Shown here one piece after another: positions 7,484-24,514 of a DNA stretch of 24,862 nucleotides. This stretch comes from a virus. Positions within the stretch are counted from its first letter, which is position 1, and the number at the start of each line of letters is the position of its first letter. The notes under the pieces are model-generated. The model saw only the letters and a program-made list of their open reading frames with translations. It was not told the DNA's origin and did not search any database. A program made the translations under genes and the position numbers. Location of the stretch: positions 1 through 24,862 of IMG/VR virus record IMGVR_UViG_3300030106_006004. The stretch is one strand, 5' to 3'.

Positions 7484-8952
7484 TGGCAATCAGCAGGGCA
7501 CAGATACCTGAACAGATCGATGCTTACCAAGAGGGTGGCGATGTCTTGGGTTCAGACGATAGGCAACAGCCGAGTATGCAAGAGCTTTCCGATTTTGATA
7601 AATCAGTAAGAGAATACGAACAGAGATTTCAAGGTTTAACTCCTCGTCCTGCACCCATGAATTTTTTTGATCTTGCTTCTGAGCTAGGCGCTGGGTTATT
7701 GCAGACTCCGAATGTTGGTGGGGCTTCTGCATTTACTGGTTTAGGTGTCGGTTTTAGTCGTGCTGCGGAGCGTTTGAAGAAAGAAGAAGAGGATTATCAA
7801 AAACAACTACAACAAGTCAGGATGCAAGCAATGCAACTTGCTTTAGAAGATGAGAGAAGAGCCGAAGAATATTTACAACAGGTGAGCTTGAAGTTAATGG
7901 GCGATACCAATAAAGAAGTAAAAACAATCGACATACAATACACAGATCCTAAGACTGGCAATGTCATTGAGACAGTTATGGACAAAAGTAGCGCTTTATT
8001 TAAAGAAATTATGGAGGATCCTGCAAAATTTAAAGCAAGGACCATAAAAACGCCATTGGTTGATATGTCTGGTACAAATAAACAGTATGAGGACATAACC
8101 AAGGAACTGGCGAAAGAAATTGTTGCTGGCTACAAAGTTTTAGCAGAAGAAGCAAGGGGTGCAACACAGACACTAGATAAGATAGAAGCTGCTAGATATT
8201 TCGCGGAAGGACTTACAGAGCAAGAATTTGGACCGATAGCACTGCTTCAAGTGGGGATTGGCAGTCTACTTACGCAACTGGGCTTTGGTAATCTAGTCGA
8301 TCAAGAAGCTCTTGCAGCACAGACTGCTGTAAACTCTGTGGGCACAGGTCTTGCAATGGGTTTGGTTGGTCAAACAAAAGGTGCAATCTCCAACAGAGAG
8401 ATGGACATGTTCTTAAAAGCATCGGCTACGCTAGGAAACAACAAGGCAGGTTTTCTTCAAATCATAGATATTACAGAACGCATAAATGAAAAGACGCTAA
8501 GAGCTTCTGAAGAATGGGGACGAGAGCTTGACAAGTTAATGGAAGAAGAAAAGGGCGTTGCAGAGATTGCCAGTGCATATACAACTTTTTTAGCTGATTT
8601 TCACAAGAGAAATCCATTGTTTGATTACGGATCTGGTAGTGCGAATGATTATGATGAGAATTTGTCTCTGGAAGAAAACCTTGAAAGATTGGACAAAAAC
8701 AGTGAGGCATACAGGATTTTGGCGCAAACAACTGCTGAAGGGATCGATGCTTTTAGAGGCATCAGCGCAAAACACGCTGCATACACGCCAGTCGGTAAAG
8801 TGGCTCAAGACATAAAAGGTGTGCCTGATGGTGCGAAATCTGCTGGTGTTTATTACAACCCAGATGACGAAGACGATCCACGCAACGGCAAACCGATGTG
8901 GCAAAGTTCTGATGGAAGATATCATGTAGAGGAAGACGAGGAGAGCCAGTAA
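7483..8952 (+). CDS. Internal virion protein (489 aa) with KGAISN motif
   Basis: The protein begins with a disordered, Gln/Asp-rich segment, then AAERLKKEEEDYQKQLQQVR (about 90-110), which should form a charged coiled coil continuing to about residue 145. The second half includes AMGLVGQTKGAISNREMDMF (about 286-306). This is the same short motif seen near the N-terminus of the 864-aa virion protein and one I associate with phage internal virion proteins. The C-terminus is acidic and ends in EEDEESQ. No catalytic motif is seen. TAATG junctions on both sides place it in the same coupled operon. I infer a capsid-internal or ejected protein. Confidence 0.65.
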   Translation: MAISRAQIPEQIDAYQEGGDVLGSDDRQQPSMQELSDFDKSVREYEQRFQGLTPRPAPMNFFDLASELGAGLLQTPNVGGASAFTGLGVGFSRAAERLKKEEEDYQKQLQQVRMQAMQLALEDERRAEEYLQQVSLKLMGDTNKEVKTIDIQYTDPKTGNVIETVMDKSSALFKEIMEDPAKFKARTIKTPLVDMSGTNKQYEDITKELAKEIVAGYKVLAEEARGATQTLDKIEAARYFAEGLTEQEFGPIALLQVGIGSLLTQLGFGNLVDQEALAAQTAVNSVGTGLAMGLVGQTKGAISNREMDMFLKASATLGNNKAGFLQIIDITERINEKTLRASEEWGRELDKLMEEEKGVAEIASAYTTFLADFHKRNPLFDYGSGSANDYDENLSLEENLERLDKNSEAYRILAQTTAEGIDAFRGISAKHAAYTPVGKVAQDIKGVPDGAKSAGVYYNPDDEDDPRNGKPMWQSSDGRYHVEEDEESQ

Positions 8953-13763: not shown

Positions 13764-13797
13764 ATCTGTCACATGGTATATTTATCGTGTGACAGAT
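13764..13797. promoter_or_regulatory. Perfect inverted repeat over the oxygenase start
   Basis: ATCTGTCACA (13764-13773) and TGTGACAGAT (13788-13797) are perfect 10-base arms around a 14-base AT-rich spacer. The right arm contains the GTG start (13789-13791) of the next gene. There is no T-run after it, so it is not a standard terminator. As DNA it could be an operator; as RNA a hairpin that hides the start. Confidence 0.55.
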
Positions 13798-14511
13798 TAT
13801 CATTTAAAGAACTATTTGCTATCGATGCAATCGCATTGGTGTATTAACCATGCGCTTTATGAATCCGTCCAAAACACATTGCCACTGATCGCAAAGTTCA
13901 ATGCTGGTGATGGCACTACTCGTCTGGAAGAAACACCGATCAAGAAACATCTAAAGAAGATCCACCCAGAGATTTACAAGGTGCCACTGTTTCGCAGGCA
14001 CTTTTGCAAACTGATGATGGACGAGATCAAGCACATGCAAAAGGAATTCAGTTTTGAGACCAACAAAGACGAGGACGAGTTGCGCCAGATCCCTGAGATC
14101 GTTCTGAGTGAGCGCTGCCCAGAGTTGTATCGCAACATGTGGTTCATTGTGCAAACCGTTTTGAATCCAATTTTCTTCTCGATCTGGCAAAGACATTGTG
14201 GATCCATAGCAAGTGTGCAGATCGCCAACTACAATCTGAAAGACAAACAACAAGGTGCATGGCATCATGACGAGAGCGCAGATCTCACGGTTGTCGTGCC
14301 ACTGAATACTGGGAAGTACGAAGGTGGCGGTACGGAATTTTATAATTATGGGATCGTAGATCCGTTACCGAGTGGTCATGCTTTGATCTTTCCAAGTTTC
14401 ATACACATGCACAGAGGTTTGCCAGTCGATACTGGAGATCGCTACTTACTGGTTTTCTGGCTGTATGATCGCAGTCGTGTCAACTACCTGTACGAAAACG
14501 CTCTACCATAG
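13789..14511 (+). CDS. 2-oxoglutarate/Fe(II)-dependent oxygenase (240 aa)
   Basis: The C-terminal half has the full 2OG-Fe(II) oxygenase signature: HxD at H159-x-D161 (AWHHDESADLTVVVPLN), a GGGTEF strand (about 178-183), distal histidine H208 (FIHMHRGLPV) and the 2-oxoglutarate-binding arginine R218, exactly ten residues later. Such enzymes hydroxylate or demethylate protein side chains, small molecules or nucleic-acid bases; the substrate here is unknown. The N-terminal 130 residues are helical and charged with no known domain. The GTG start lacks a clear ribosome site and lies in a perfect inverted repeat; an ATG at 13825 is the alternative. The 3' end overlaps the opposing exonuclease gene by nine bases. 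Confidence 0.8.
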   Translation: MTDYHLKNYLLSMQSHWCINHALYESVQNTLPLIAKFNAGDGTTRLEETPIKKHLKKIHPEIYKVPLFRRHFCKLMMDEIKHMQKEFSFETNKDEDELRQIPEIVLSERCPELYRNMWFIVQTVLNPIFFSIWQRHCGSIASVQIANYNLKDKQQGAWHHDESADLTVVVPLNTGKYEGGGTEFYNYGIVDPLPSGHALIFPSFIHMHRGLPVDTGDRYLLVFWLYDRSRVNYLYENALP

Positions 14512-16418: not shown

Positions 16419-18551
16419 ATGGGACTGAACATTAAACGACCAAACAAGAACTTCGACAAACCTTTTTCAACAGACTATCAAAATCAATTCCTGAGCTTCA
16501 TGCATGAACATGGCATGGAGCCTGACCCCAAGGTTGGGCTGGTGGTTGATGGGAGCATTGGTCGTGCTTACATCAACATCGGTGGTGACAGGAAGCTGTC
16601 GGGTTGGTACCAACTCTGGTTGAACCAATCCGTCCCTTTTGGAAGAATCGGAGATTACCGAATTTCGGTGGACGACCCGACAGCGACTTGGAAGCCAGAG
16701 AACGAAAACAATTATCGCATGACGCAAGATCAGATCGATGAGATCAAAAAATTGCGCAGAGATGTGGAGATCAAGAAGGCAGAAAAGTATTCCAAGACTG
16801 CAAAGAAGGCACAGGCTCTCTGGGACGAAGCCAGAGCTTGCGAGAAGCATCCATATTTAGAAAAGAAGCAAGTCCTCAGCTATGGTCTTAAAATTGATTC
16901 TGGTGGGCGTTTAATGATCCCAATGTATGACAAAGATTTGTCTATTGTCGGACTTCAATATATATCCGAGGACGGCACCAAGCGTTTCCTTACTGGTTCC
17001 AAAAAAAGCGGATGCTTTTTTGTCCTTGGACAAGAGGTGTTGAAAACCAGCGAGAAAGTTTATTACGCTGAAGGTTACGCCACAGCAGCTTCCGTTTACC
17101 AAGACATGTCACAGCCTGTCGTGATTGCTTGGGACGCTTACAACTTACAGAAGGTCGCAGAAACGCTATTCCCAAGCCTAAAGAACCATAAACACATATT
17201 TGTAGCTGACAACGATGAAAGTGGCACTGGCGAGAAAGAAGCGGTCAAAGCCAGCCAGTGGATCTTGAAGCAAAAAGGGCAGAGTGAGGTCCTTATGCCG
17301 ATGGAGAGAGGCGATTACAATGACCAGAAGGCTGAGGATCAGGATGAAAAGCCAGCGCTTCAAATCATCGATATCACGCCCAGCGAGATCGACTTCATGC
17401 GTTCTGAGAAAGGTCGTATGCTCAATACGAAAGAGAATGTACAGGCAATCATGGATATCCACGCGATACAGGTGCGATACAATGTCATTAAGAAGAAGAT
17501 CGAGATTGAGATACCCAACATGGACTTCAATGAGGACATGAAGGAAGAAGCCAGTCTGGTGGAACTGGAGGATCGCTGTATCAAGCAGGGCGTACCGTAC
17601 ACGCGAGTCAGAGACTATTTAAAGGTGTTGGCGAAGACATATAACCCTGTGGGTGAATGGATCGACAGCAAGGCATGGGATGGCACATCACGGATGCAAG
17701 GCTTTCTGGACACCATTACGAGCTCCAGCCCCACTGCTCTGAAAGAGATGTTGCTCAAGAAATGGCTCATTTCCTGTGTGGCAGCACTCTATGAGCCCAA
17801 TGGGGTCGAGTTAGAGGGCATCTTGGTGTTCCAAGGCGCACAGGGTCTCGGCAAGACATTGTGGTTCAAGCGACTGTGCGATTACAACAACGGCTGGCTA
17901 CTTGAAGGCGCGACCCTCAATCCATCGGATAAGGACTCTGTTAAGAGGGCGGTGTCGCACTGGATCGTTGAACTGGGTGAGATAGAATCGACTTTTAAGA
18001 AGTCAGACATAGACCAACTCAAGGCGTTTGTCACCAGTCGCACAGACGAGCTCAGGTTGCCTTACGACAGGGCTTTCACAACTTACCAAAGACGCACCGC
18101 GTTTTACGCGAGTGTAAACGCCAGAGAGTTTCTTACAGATACATCAGGCAACCGTAGGTTCTGGTGCATCGCAGTCGATGCGATTGATGTCAATCATGGG
18201 ATCAACATGCAACAGCTATGGGCAGAGGTTAAAGAGACCATGTATGTCAGAGGACAAAAAAACTGGTTTCTCAGTCCAGACGAGCGCGAACTGCTGAACG
18301 ACAGCAACGAGAGTTACCGCACACAATCGAGTGTCGAGGATCTCATCATGGAACACTGCGACTTCACCAGCAAATATCCGAGCGCTGTGCAGATGACGAA
18401 GTTGCTGAGAGATCTGGGGATTGCCAATCCGAGGATGCCAGACTTTAAAGAGGCATCTAGGGTGCTGGCTAACAATGGCGTAGAGCCACGCAGGACCAAT
18501 GGCAAGAAGGTCTATGATGTGGACTACACGAAAGCGACCAGTGAGTTCTGA
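16419..18551 (+). CDS. Toprim primase + VirE-family helicase/ATPase
   Basis: A 710-aa replication protein. The N-terminal 100 residues resemble the lead region of TraC/phage-type primases (SGWYQLWLNQSVPFGRIGDY) but lack a zinc finger. A Toprim domain follows: VYYAEGYATAASVYQ with catalytic E218, and FVADNDESGTG with D264 and D266. The C-terminal half is a VirE (PF05272)-type P-loop ATPase: Walker A GAQGLGKT at 473-480, then VELGEIESTFKKSDIDQLKAF and ASVNAREFLTDTSGNRRFW (to about 583). It should synthesise primers and unwind the phage fork. It is divergent from the ssDNA-binding gene. The zinc-ribbon gene that follows overlaps by TGATG and may supply the missing zinc module. Confidence 0.88.
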   Translation: MGLNIKRPNKNFDKPFSTDYQNQFLSFMHEHGMEPDPKVGLVVDGSIGRAYINIGGDRKLSGWYQLWLNQSVPFGRIGDYRISVDDPTATWKPENENNYRMTQDQIDEIKKLRRDVEIKKAEKYSKTAKKAQALWDEARACEKHPYLEKKQVLSYGLKIDSGGRLMIPMYDKDLSIVGLQYISEDGTKRFLTGSKKSGCFFVLGQEVLKTSEKVYYAEGYATAASVYQDMSQPVVIAWDAYNLQKVAETLFPSLKNHKHIFVADNDESGTGEKEAVKASQWILKQKGQSEVLMPMERGDYNDQKAEDQDEKPALQIIDITPSEIDFMRSEKGRMLNTKENVQAIMDIHAIQVRYNVIKKKIEIEIPNMDFNEDMKEEASLVELEDRCIKQGVPYTRVRDYLKVLAKTYNPVGEWIDSKAWDGTSRMQGFLDTITSSSPTALKEMLLKKWLISCVAALYEPNGVELEGILVFQGAQGLGKTLWFKRLCDYNNGWLLEGATLNPSDKDSVKRAVSHWIVELGEIESTFKKSDIDQLKAFVTSRTDELRLPYDRAFTTYQRRTAFYASVNAREFLTDTSGNRRFWCIAVDAIDVNHGINMQQLWAEVKETMYVRGQKNWFLSPDERELLNDSNESYRTQSSVEDLIMEHCDFTSKYPSAVQMTKLLRDLGIANPRMPDFKEASRVLANNGVEPRRTNGKKVYDVDYTKATSEF

Positions 18552-18921: not shown

Positions 18922-19058
18922 TGTGCAAAAGTTTATAATTGCAACAGTGTGAGGTGAGGGTAAGGTACACTGTGTTTGTAAATATGTATAAAAATGTGCA
19001 TTGTAAAGATTTATATTAATTTGAACAGATTTGTGAAAATGTACAAAAGAGTGAGGGT

Positions 19059-19072
19059 TAGGACATGTCCTA
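19059..19072. repeat. 14-bp perfect palindrome
   Basis: TAGGACATGTCCTA reads the same on both strands. It lies inside a longer near-perfect stem (18957-18968 with 19078-19089). It looks like a dimeric protein binding site. Confidence 0.7.
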
Positions 19073-19148
19073 TCACTGTACCTCACCCTGTACTCAAAGC
19101 TAACATTGGTGGTGGTTTCACTTATTAGGTAGTGTTAGGTATATACAG

Positions 19149-19169
19149 AATAATAATAATAATAATAAT
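19149..19169 (+). repeat. AAT microsatellite, seven copies
   Basis: Seven tandem AAT units run from 19149 to 19169, in the loop of the GGTATATA/TATATACC stem. It is easily melted DNA inside the noncoding region. Confidence 0.9.
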
Positions 19170-19188
19170 ATATACCATAGCAGTAGCG

Positions 19189-19225
19189 CCCCTATATACA
19201 ATACGGTTATACACCCCTATATAGG
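19189..19225. repeat. CCCCTATATA direct repeats and CCTATATAGG palindrome
   Basis: CCCCTATATA occurs at 19189-19198 and 19214-19223, 25 bases start to start. The second copy extends into the perfect palindrome CCTATATAGG (19216-19225). Spacing of about two and a half helical turns could suit paired protein binding. Confidence 0.6.
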
Positions 19226-19290
19226 AGATTGCCTAACACTCACCCCTGTTACTGCTGGTTTATAAAAAAATGTAAAAATGGAGATAAATA

Positions 19291-23552: not shown

Positions 23553-23963
23553 GTGGTTGACTCAAGAAGAAAAGGTGCAGCGTTTGAACGCGAGGTAGTG
23601 AACAAGATCAACGCATTTGCAGAAGAAAACAACCTCCAGTTTTCCTGCAAGCGAAATCTCGATCAATACCAGACAAGAAATCAGTGTGACATTCCGATTC
23701 CCAACCATGCAATCGAGTGTAAGCACTACAACTCTGGTAATTGGTTGAAACCAGCTTGGTGGAAACAAGTGTGCGAAGCCAGCAACGGATCGATCCCAGT
23801 TTTGATCTTCAAATTCAATCGAGTACCGCCCAGAGTTTGCGTTCCTTTGTATGCAATCAACCTAGAAATGGAACGCACGAATGATATAACTGCCGTCCTG
23901 CCAATGGATGACTGGTTATACCTCCTAAAAACAAATTGGACCCAATACGAGACAATGAAATGA
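23553..23963 (+). CDS. Holliday-junction-resolvase-like PD-(D/E)XK nuclease
   Basis: The 136-aa protein has the Hjc-like nuclease core: SRRKGAAFEREVVNKIN with E12/E14, SCKRNLDQYQTRNQCDIP with D46, and HAIECKHYN with E55-x-K57. A helix with PAWWKQVCEA follows, as in small archaeal and phage resolvases. It should cut branched DNA to resolve recombination intermediates before packaging; the substrate is inferred. The GTG start follows the preceding stop with no gap, and an ATGA overlap joins it to the oxygenase gene. It complements the exonuclease and ssDNA-binding protein elsewhere in the window. Confidence 0.8.
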   Translation: MVDSRRKGAAFEREVVNKINAFAEENNLQFSCKRNLDQYQTRNQCDIPIPNHAIECKHYNSGNWLKPAWWKQVCEASNGSIPVLIFKFNRVPPRVCVPLYAINLEMERTNDITAVLPMDDWLYLLKTNWTQYETMK

Positions 23964-24514
23964 ACCAAAAAACCCCAAAACACGGCATCACAGGTGGCTT
24001 TTGCATCGAAAAAAACGAAGTTGTGAGGTATTTAGACCACATCAAAGGCAAAAAAGGTGTGAAAGGCGAGATTTACAGCGATAAAACCACGAAAAAGGAC
24101 GAAAAGTACCGCGATGTGATGATTTACCGCCTCGATCAGAGCGATATTGAGCTCTATGAGCCGATTCAGACCATCGCAAACAAGGTCAATCGCTATTTCA
24201 ACTACCAGTTGGATGGAATCGAGCAAGCACAGGTCATGAAATACCAATCTCCGTCCAATGGCTACGACTGGCACATGGATCTGGGAGCAGAGGGCGTGTC
24301 TCTGACCAGAAAAATAGGTGTATCGGTTTTGCTCAACGAAGATTACAAAGGCGGTGAACTTTTTTTTAGAGGTGGCAACAGCGAAGAGTCAATCAAACCC
24401 AAAACTGGTGAGGTGGTGGCTTTCTCTTCATTCGTTCATCACAAAGTCAACCCTGTGACGAAAGGAAAAAGATTGGTGCTGGTATTCTGGCTTACTGGTC
24501 CTTGTTTTCGTTAA
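23960..24514 (+). CDS. 2OG-Fe(II) oxygenase, PKHD-type (184 aa)
   Basis: The start is the ATG at 23960, overlapping the previous stop (ATGA); an in-frame TTG at 23936 is less likely. The product shows the prolyl-4-hydroxylase-like fold: VMKYQSPSNGYDWHMDLG with H105-x-D107, IGVSVLLNEDYKGGELFF (about 118-135), KPKTGEVVAFSSFVHHKV with H161, and R171 ten residues on. All three metal ligands and the 2-oxoglutarate arginine are present. Relatives are common in cyanophages and other marine phages; the substrate is unknown and could be a host or virion protein. Its TAA shares the four bases TTAA with the stop of the opposing gene. Confidence 0.85.
   Translation: MNQKTPKHGITGGFCIEKNEVVRYLDHIKGKKGVKGEIYSDKTTKKDEKYRDVMIYRLDQSDIELYEPIQTIANKVNRYFNYQLDGIEQAQVMKYQSPSNGYDWHMDLGAEGVSLTRKIGVSVLLNEDYKGGELFFRGGNSEESIKPKTGEVVAFSSFVHHKVNPVTKGKRLVLVFWLTGPCFR

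Follow-up and report, generated by a model that had tools for sequence, protein, structure and literature searches.

The 369-nt gap at positions 18922–19290 of the window, the 24,862-nt stretch of viral DNA that we analysed, is probably the phage's iteron-type replication origin, bound and opened by the primase-helicase encoded upstream. We put the probability of this reading at about 0.8. Such an origin type is already known from PICIs, SaPIs and P4; on the best reading, its bearer here is a large and abundant lineage of uncultivated marine phages. The proposal would give this abundant lineage, for which a close isolate was not found, a specific origin and initiator.

The gap follows the gene for a 710-amino-acid primase-helicase and two small ORFs. 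A 68-amino-acid ORF, and then the small terminase gene terS, lie downstream. The gap had been described as noncoding and, consistent with this, it holds no convincing gene; a search for tRNA and tmRNA found none. The repeats listed in the sequence-only reading are all present. We found the 12-base stem (18957–18968 with 19078–19089, matching at 11 of 12 positions), the 14-base palindrome (19059–19072), the 9-base stem (19131–19139 with 19232–19240), the 8-base stem (19138–19145 with 19169–19176) and the crossing 7-base stem (19179–19185 with 19250–19256). The two copies of CCCCTATATA, the CCTATATAGG sequence and the seven AAT units were also found where listed.

The same reading held that these repeats exceed chance. 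As copies of one short motif they are indeed far from random; as structure, their excess is weak. The gap contains 24 inverted 7-mer pairs, against 12.5 expected (18 of 1000 shuffles were as high), and 8 inverted 8-mer pairs, against 3.6 expected (84 of 1000 shuffles). For inverted 9-mers, 71 of 1000 shuffles were as high. RNA folding of the gap gave z = −1.6 for the + strand, where 9 of 100 shuffles folded equally well, and z = −2.7 for the − strand. Shuffled sequences had been named as a test that could overturn the claim and, for structure, these counts and folding scores came close to doing so. Taken together, the gap repeats are real, but they barely exceed chance when judged as hairpins or RNA structure. 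The long 'stems' are mostly copies of a short motif in opposite orientations: the 12-base and 9-base stems are each a pair of motif copies, and the palindrome covers two copies placed back to back. The (AAT)7 tract sits within the AT-rich centre of the array. Coordinates are listed in Table 1.

Table 1. Features of the putative origin and its candidate initiator gene in the window.
Feature	Position	Strand	Basis
Primase-helicase (Toprim_3 + VapE-like helicase), 710 aa, presumed origin-binding initiator, PriRep type	16419..18551	+	Pfam, PDB, Foldseek
Coding part for predicted C-terminal winged helix (residues 638-703), candidate origin-binding domain	18330..18527	+	AlphaFold model
Putative replication origin: AT-rich DNA flanked by iteron arrays of both orientations	18942..19260	.	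Homologue of 157-locus element
Iteron CCTCACACTG	18945..18954	-	Motif copy
Iteron CCTTACCCTC	18956..18965	-	Motif copy
Iteron AGGTACACTGT, family consensus form	18963..18973	+	PWM score 11.7
AT-rich stretch, 79% A+T (window 57%)	18974..19045	.	Base composition
Iteron CCTAACCCTC, overlaps one arm of 14-base palindrome	19053..19062	-	Motif copy
Iteron CCTATCACTG, 1 mismatch, overlaps other palindrome arm	19069..19078	+	Motif copy
Iteron CCTCACCCTG	19081..19090	+	Motif copy
Middle iteron CCTAACACTA, 1 mismatch	19130..19139	-	Motif copy
Candidate unwinding element: AT-rich centre (88% A+T) holding (AAT)7	19140..19180	.	Base composition
CCTATATAGGAGATTG, directly 5' of right-hand iterons	19216..19231	+	Sequence
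Right iteron CCTAACACTC; degenerate copy CTCACCCCTGT starts ~7 nt further on	19232..19241	+	Motif copies

A search of viral contigs with TerS identified 280 relatives, and the best 80 of the 280 were taken as loci. Three relatives are near-identical to the window; the others share ~70% TerS identity. Most of these loci carry, before terS, a conserved noncoding element that is ~200 nt long. We built a profile of this element (nhmmer) without the window. The profile matched the window at 19077–19171 (E 5e-4), and positions 19126–19170 align to the same place in relatives with 79–85% identity. On these alignments, the window is a diverged member of the element family. Profile searches found the element in 157 retrieved loci and, in each of eight long contigs, as a single copy that is always on the same strand. 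The primase lies before the element and terS after it, on the same strand, in 130 loci; in 24 loci terS is present and the primase was unmatched within the contig stretch, and in 3 the reverse was seen. Scanning for a DNA pattern, independently of TerS, gave 84 stretches with the same gene context. No isolated phage carrying the element itself was found, and a literature search on this element returned nothing specific. In L009 and L033, a gene of 113–114 amino acids with SET-domain-like residues (read by eye) lies between the element and terS.

In relatives, the element consists of arrays of TACMCTG, in both orientations, around AT-rich DNA. The window version has diverged to about CCTNACMCTS. 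The most over-represented words in the elements are CAGTGTA/TACACTG, AGGGTAT/ATACCCT and AGTGTAC/GTACACT, and every 200 nt of element holds on average 5.7 copies of the core (TA/TG/CA)CMCT, compared with 0.37 in the window's coding DNA (~15-fold denser). The left array of relatives advances in 12-nt steps. The middle pair is 7 nt apart, in one orientation, and the iterons of the right array have the same 7-nt spacing in the opposite orientation. AT-rich DNA separates the arrays, with a mean of 79% A+T for the family centre and 88% for that of the window (19140–19180). The position of CCTATATAGGAGATTG resembles that of the TTTATAGGGGTTGC box of relatives; in a PWM test in the window it did not score as such a box.

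A motif PWM derived solely from relatives detected 4 sites in the gap; the remainder of the window has 0.35–0.47 per 369 nt, and shuffles have 1.2–1.5. There are five exact matches to CCTNACMCTS in the 24.9-kb window, all within 18945–19241, where two further copies have one mismatch; this motif was taken from the region itself, so the count is descriptive and not a test. We also used a repeat-density statistic, based on exact 7-mer repeats in 300-nt segments across a locus. In 33 of 42 loci from marine relatives, the element was the top segment. In the window, by contrast, five other stretches are denser than the array by this measure because the array's motif copies are degenerate. The window element has several copies of a short motif, two iteron sets (left/middle and right arrays) around an AT-rich region, and a location 3' of the primase-helicase gene, as do iteron origins of the PICI/SaPI/P4 type. 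A phage origin had been listed among the options for this DNA, and it is supported by the conservation of the array as a single copy, by the AT-rich DNA at its centre and by its primase-linked place. Cumulative skew had been suggested as a check of that option; GC skew follows gene strand, with no clean switch at the element.

Another option was a structured noncoding RNA, or a 5' UTR switch that regulates terS and the small genes. The inverted repeats and folding scores described above point this way, as does a pairing between the middle and right arrays that outdoes slid controls. However, the best middle–right helix has one pair with two-sided changes, and RNAalifold predicted 0 conserved pairs from 26 aligned relatives. 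Hence, the covariation check proposed for the paired arms revealed no common fold; subgroups of relatives give differing folds. Furthermore, Rfam had no match to the window or 12 relatives, and the 8-base stem is broken at 19142, with no compensating change, in the near-identical L002 and L003. Repeat units of the left array switch orientation from relative to relative, and these flips fit protein sites on duplex DNA, not conserved RNA helices. We therefore consider an RNA element highly improbable. A central hairpin (TTATAAG...CTTA) was also considered as an RNA helix and rejected. It is kept in some groups and lost in others; the sequence of its 3' arm stays where the hairpin is lost, and so looks like a sequence constraint.

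The reading of the gap as a replication origin calls on the upstream primase-helicase as initiator. Phage records with this primase number 662. The window protein matches Pfam families PF05272 (2e-52) and PF13362 (5e-7), and its helicase domain matches PDB entry 7pds by sequence (4e-24). The top Foldseek match of its AlphaFold model is also 7pds, 'The structure of PriRep1 with dsDNA' (E 1e-11), and the VIA alignment covers model residues 320–703. The primase is kin, by sequence and fold, to PriRep1, its closest solved relative and one solved on dsDNA. Overall model quality is mediocre (pLDDT 68), and the helicase core is poorly predicted. The modelled C-terminus runs helix-strand-helix-helix-strand-strand, which is the order of a winged helix, and this block is predicted with fair confidence (pLDDT mostly 78–88). 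As modelled, the protein would be a PriRep-homologous initiator with a C-terminal DNA-binding domain.

The primase-helicase probably binds the motif repeats. We propose that it does so through the C-terminal winged-helix domain, a probable contact. Helicase rings would then assemble on the flanking arrays, either side of the centre, and the AT-rich centre would melt. The Toprim primase domain would prime synthesis at the melted centre. We infer primase binding, melting and origin activity at the array.

In the marine lineage both neighbouring genes are near the element, so position alone cannot decide which of them the array follows; distant primases can. The sole cellular match to the primase, at 33% identity, is a Toprim+VapE+zinc-ribbon protein encoded by a MAG contig of the Legionella family. 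Starting ~60 nt past its stop codon, this contig has nine AGGGTAT words in 300 nt, and mirror arrays surround AT-rich DNA; no terS match was found nearby. We searched viral contigs with the Legionella-family primase and obtained 16 distant loci. The distant primases are 32–44% identical, and arrays with different spellings lie directly downstream of several of them. In L188, L265, L267, L269 and L270, the 300 nt with the densest repeats in the locus directly follow the primase stop (0 of about 700–1085 other windows were as dense). The iteron words of L265, L267, L269, L270 and L188 differ (GGTGTAC, GTGACAC, AGGGTGG, CGACACC and AGGGTAT). No terS match was found in L188, and L265, L267 and L270 have a terS of another family 1–2 kb away. 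Among isolates, the densest array is at, or within ~400 nt downstream of, the primase in Marinobacter PS3, Aeromonas phiWae15, Acinetobacter Alexa and Pseudomonas LPPA36. In two Vibrio phages that encode VapE-type primases, by contrast, the densest repeats precede the primase (L286, 821–1120; L291, 851–1150), and the array of FoX1 is possibly upstream too. In ep3 the array is 2.7 kb from the primase. The repeat-density scan detected no array near the primase in L266, L268, Mano or podovirus ctype202. Taken together, these loci suggest that the array goes with the primase rather than with TerS.

These loci bear on two explanations that tie the array to terS. First, the small terminase could recognise it as a packaging (pac) site, much as the pac of phage P1 has arrays of hexanucleotides. 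In other phages, TerS often binds beside its own gene. In the marine lineage terS always begins 83–539 nt past the element, on the same strand, and is closer to it than the primase is; the latter is up to ~3 kb away in relatives, and precedes the element in every contig that extends to it. In the window, the first iteron is ~390 nt past the primase stop, and the two small ORFs lie between primase and array. In addition, Pelagibacter phage HTVC023P (L183), whose TerS is 27% identical, has five CTAGGAA direct repeats (7797–7887) in the 546-nt gap just before terS; a DNA polymerase gene, rather than an annotated VapE-type primase, is found in this region. Conversely, arrays directly follow distant primases where terS was not found nearby, is of another family or is 1–2 kb away. 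The repeat statistic also picks the known P4 and Sfi21 origins, and mirror arrays with AT-rich DNA between them are what melting would call for. We regard a pac site as unlikely, and keep it as the main doubt because terS is always close in the marine lineage and the HTVC023P array precedes a distant terS.

Second, the array could be an operator for a phage regulator, controlling a late-gene promoter. Repeated candidate binding sites upstream of terS would suit this, and the sequence-only reading had offered a switch controlling terS. However, the array of L269 is between convergent genes, and the genes that follow, one of them integrase-like, are on the opposite strand. In L188, the next + strand gene of any size is ~1.5 kb from the array. 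Distant arrays thus adjoin other genes, and replicons that are otherwise unrelated share the link between array and primase. There is very little likelihood that the array is an operator, and the terS switch is not supported.

A fixed genome end (cos or DTR) was rejected. Contigs read through the element, and its internal place in 157 loci, which also counts against a pac site, means that it is not a fixed physical end. The right end of one relative matches the left end of another, indicating a circular or permuted genome of ~56 kb. In L171 (G003), TerL lies near −33626..−32103 relative to the primase end. This places it ~22 kb from terS round the inferred 56-kb circle, or ~33 kb the other way, which is an unusual separation.

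The putative origin most resembles those of PICIs, in which two iteron sets flank an AT-rich region 3' of pri-rep (PMC6092414); SaPIs share this arrangement (PMC6092414, PMC7581432). The helicase domain of PriRep1 (7pds) is homologous to that of the window primase, and some islands have the same gene order of pri-rep, ori and then terS (PMC6092414, PMC7581432). Conversely, PICIs and SaPIs are satellites, whereas the window belongs to a lineage of tailed phages that encode structural proteins of their own. The window primase domain is a DnaG-type Toprim, unlike the AEP-type primases of SaPIs (PMC7581432). The window also differs in having two small ORFs between gene and origin, another iteron sequence and units in mixed orientation.

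In P4, crr is bound by the alpha primase-helicase and immediately follows the alpha gene on its 3' side; the type 1 iterons annotated in crr point in both directions, as do the iterons of the window. Our repeat-density statistic ranked crr first and ori1 second in P4. Unlike the marine element, of which there is one per long contig, crr is two 120-bp direct repeats, accompanied by a second iteron region (ori1); the iteron sequence is also different. For Streptococcus phage Sfi21, the annotated 302-bp noncoding origin ranked first. Like the window array, it is AT-rich, directly downstream of a putative primase and has repeats on both sides. It differs in iteron sequence and host, and terS is absent beside it in the examined region. 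The origin of plasmid pRN1 is also immediately downstream of a primase-helicase gene, and works via one conserved 100-nt stem-loop (PMC4234260); the window element has no conserved stem-loop.

An iteron origin beside the gene may, tentatively, be a widespread rule for VapE/PriRep-type primases of tailed phages and chromosomal elements, and not peculiar to PICIs, P4 and a few dairy phages. As part of this speculative generalisation, a second box (about GTTYATRNGGGTTT) might be shared, staying constant while iterons change. If so, these origins would have an unwinding or priming site in common, marked by this box. The marine second-box PWM scores best inside the origin of L188, L265, L269, L278, Alexa and phiWae15, and has no such match in the window, P4 or Sfi21. 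The distant loci offer naturally re-spelled initiator–iteron pairs for studying how DNA specificity changes in this helicase family. We also observed that a GTTYATRNGGGTTT-like box is the locus-best match inside the origin regions of L188, L265, L269, L278, L288 and L289, where iterons differ. Elsewhere in the window, the translations of 13789–14511 and 23936–24514 look like 2OG-Fe(II) oxygenases of a prolyl-4-hydroxylase-like kind (motifs read by eye).
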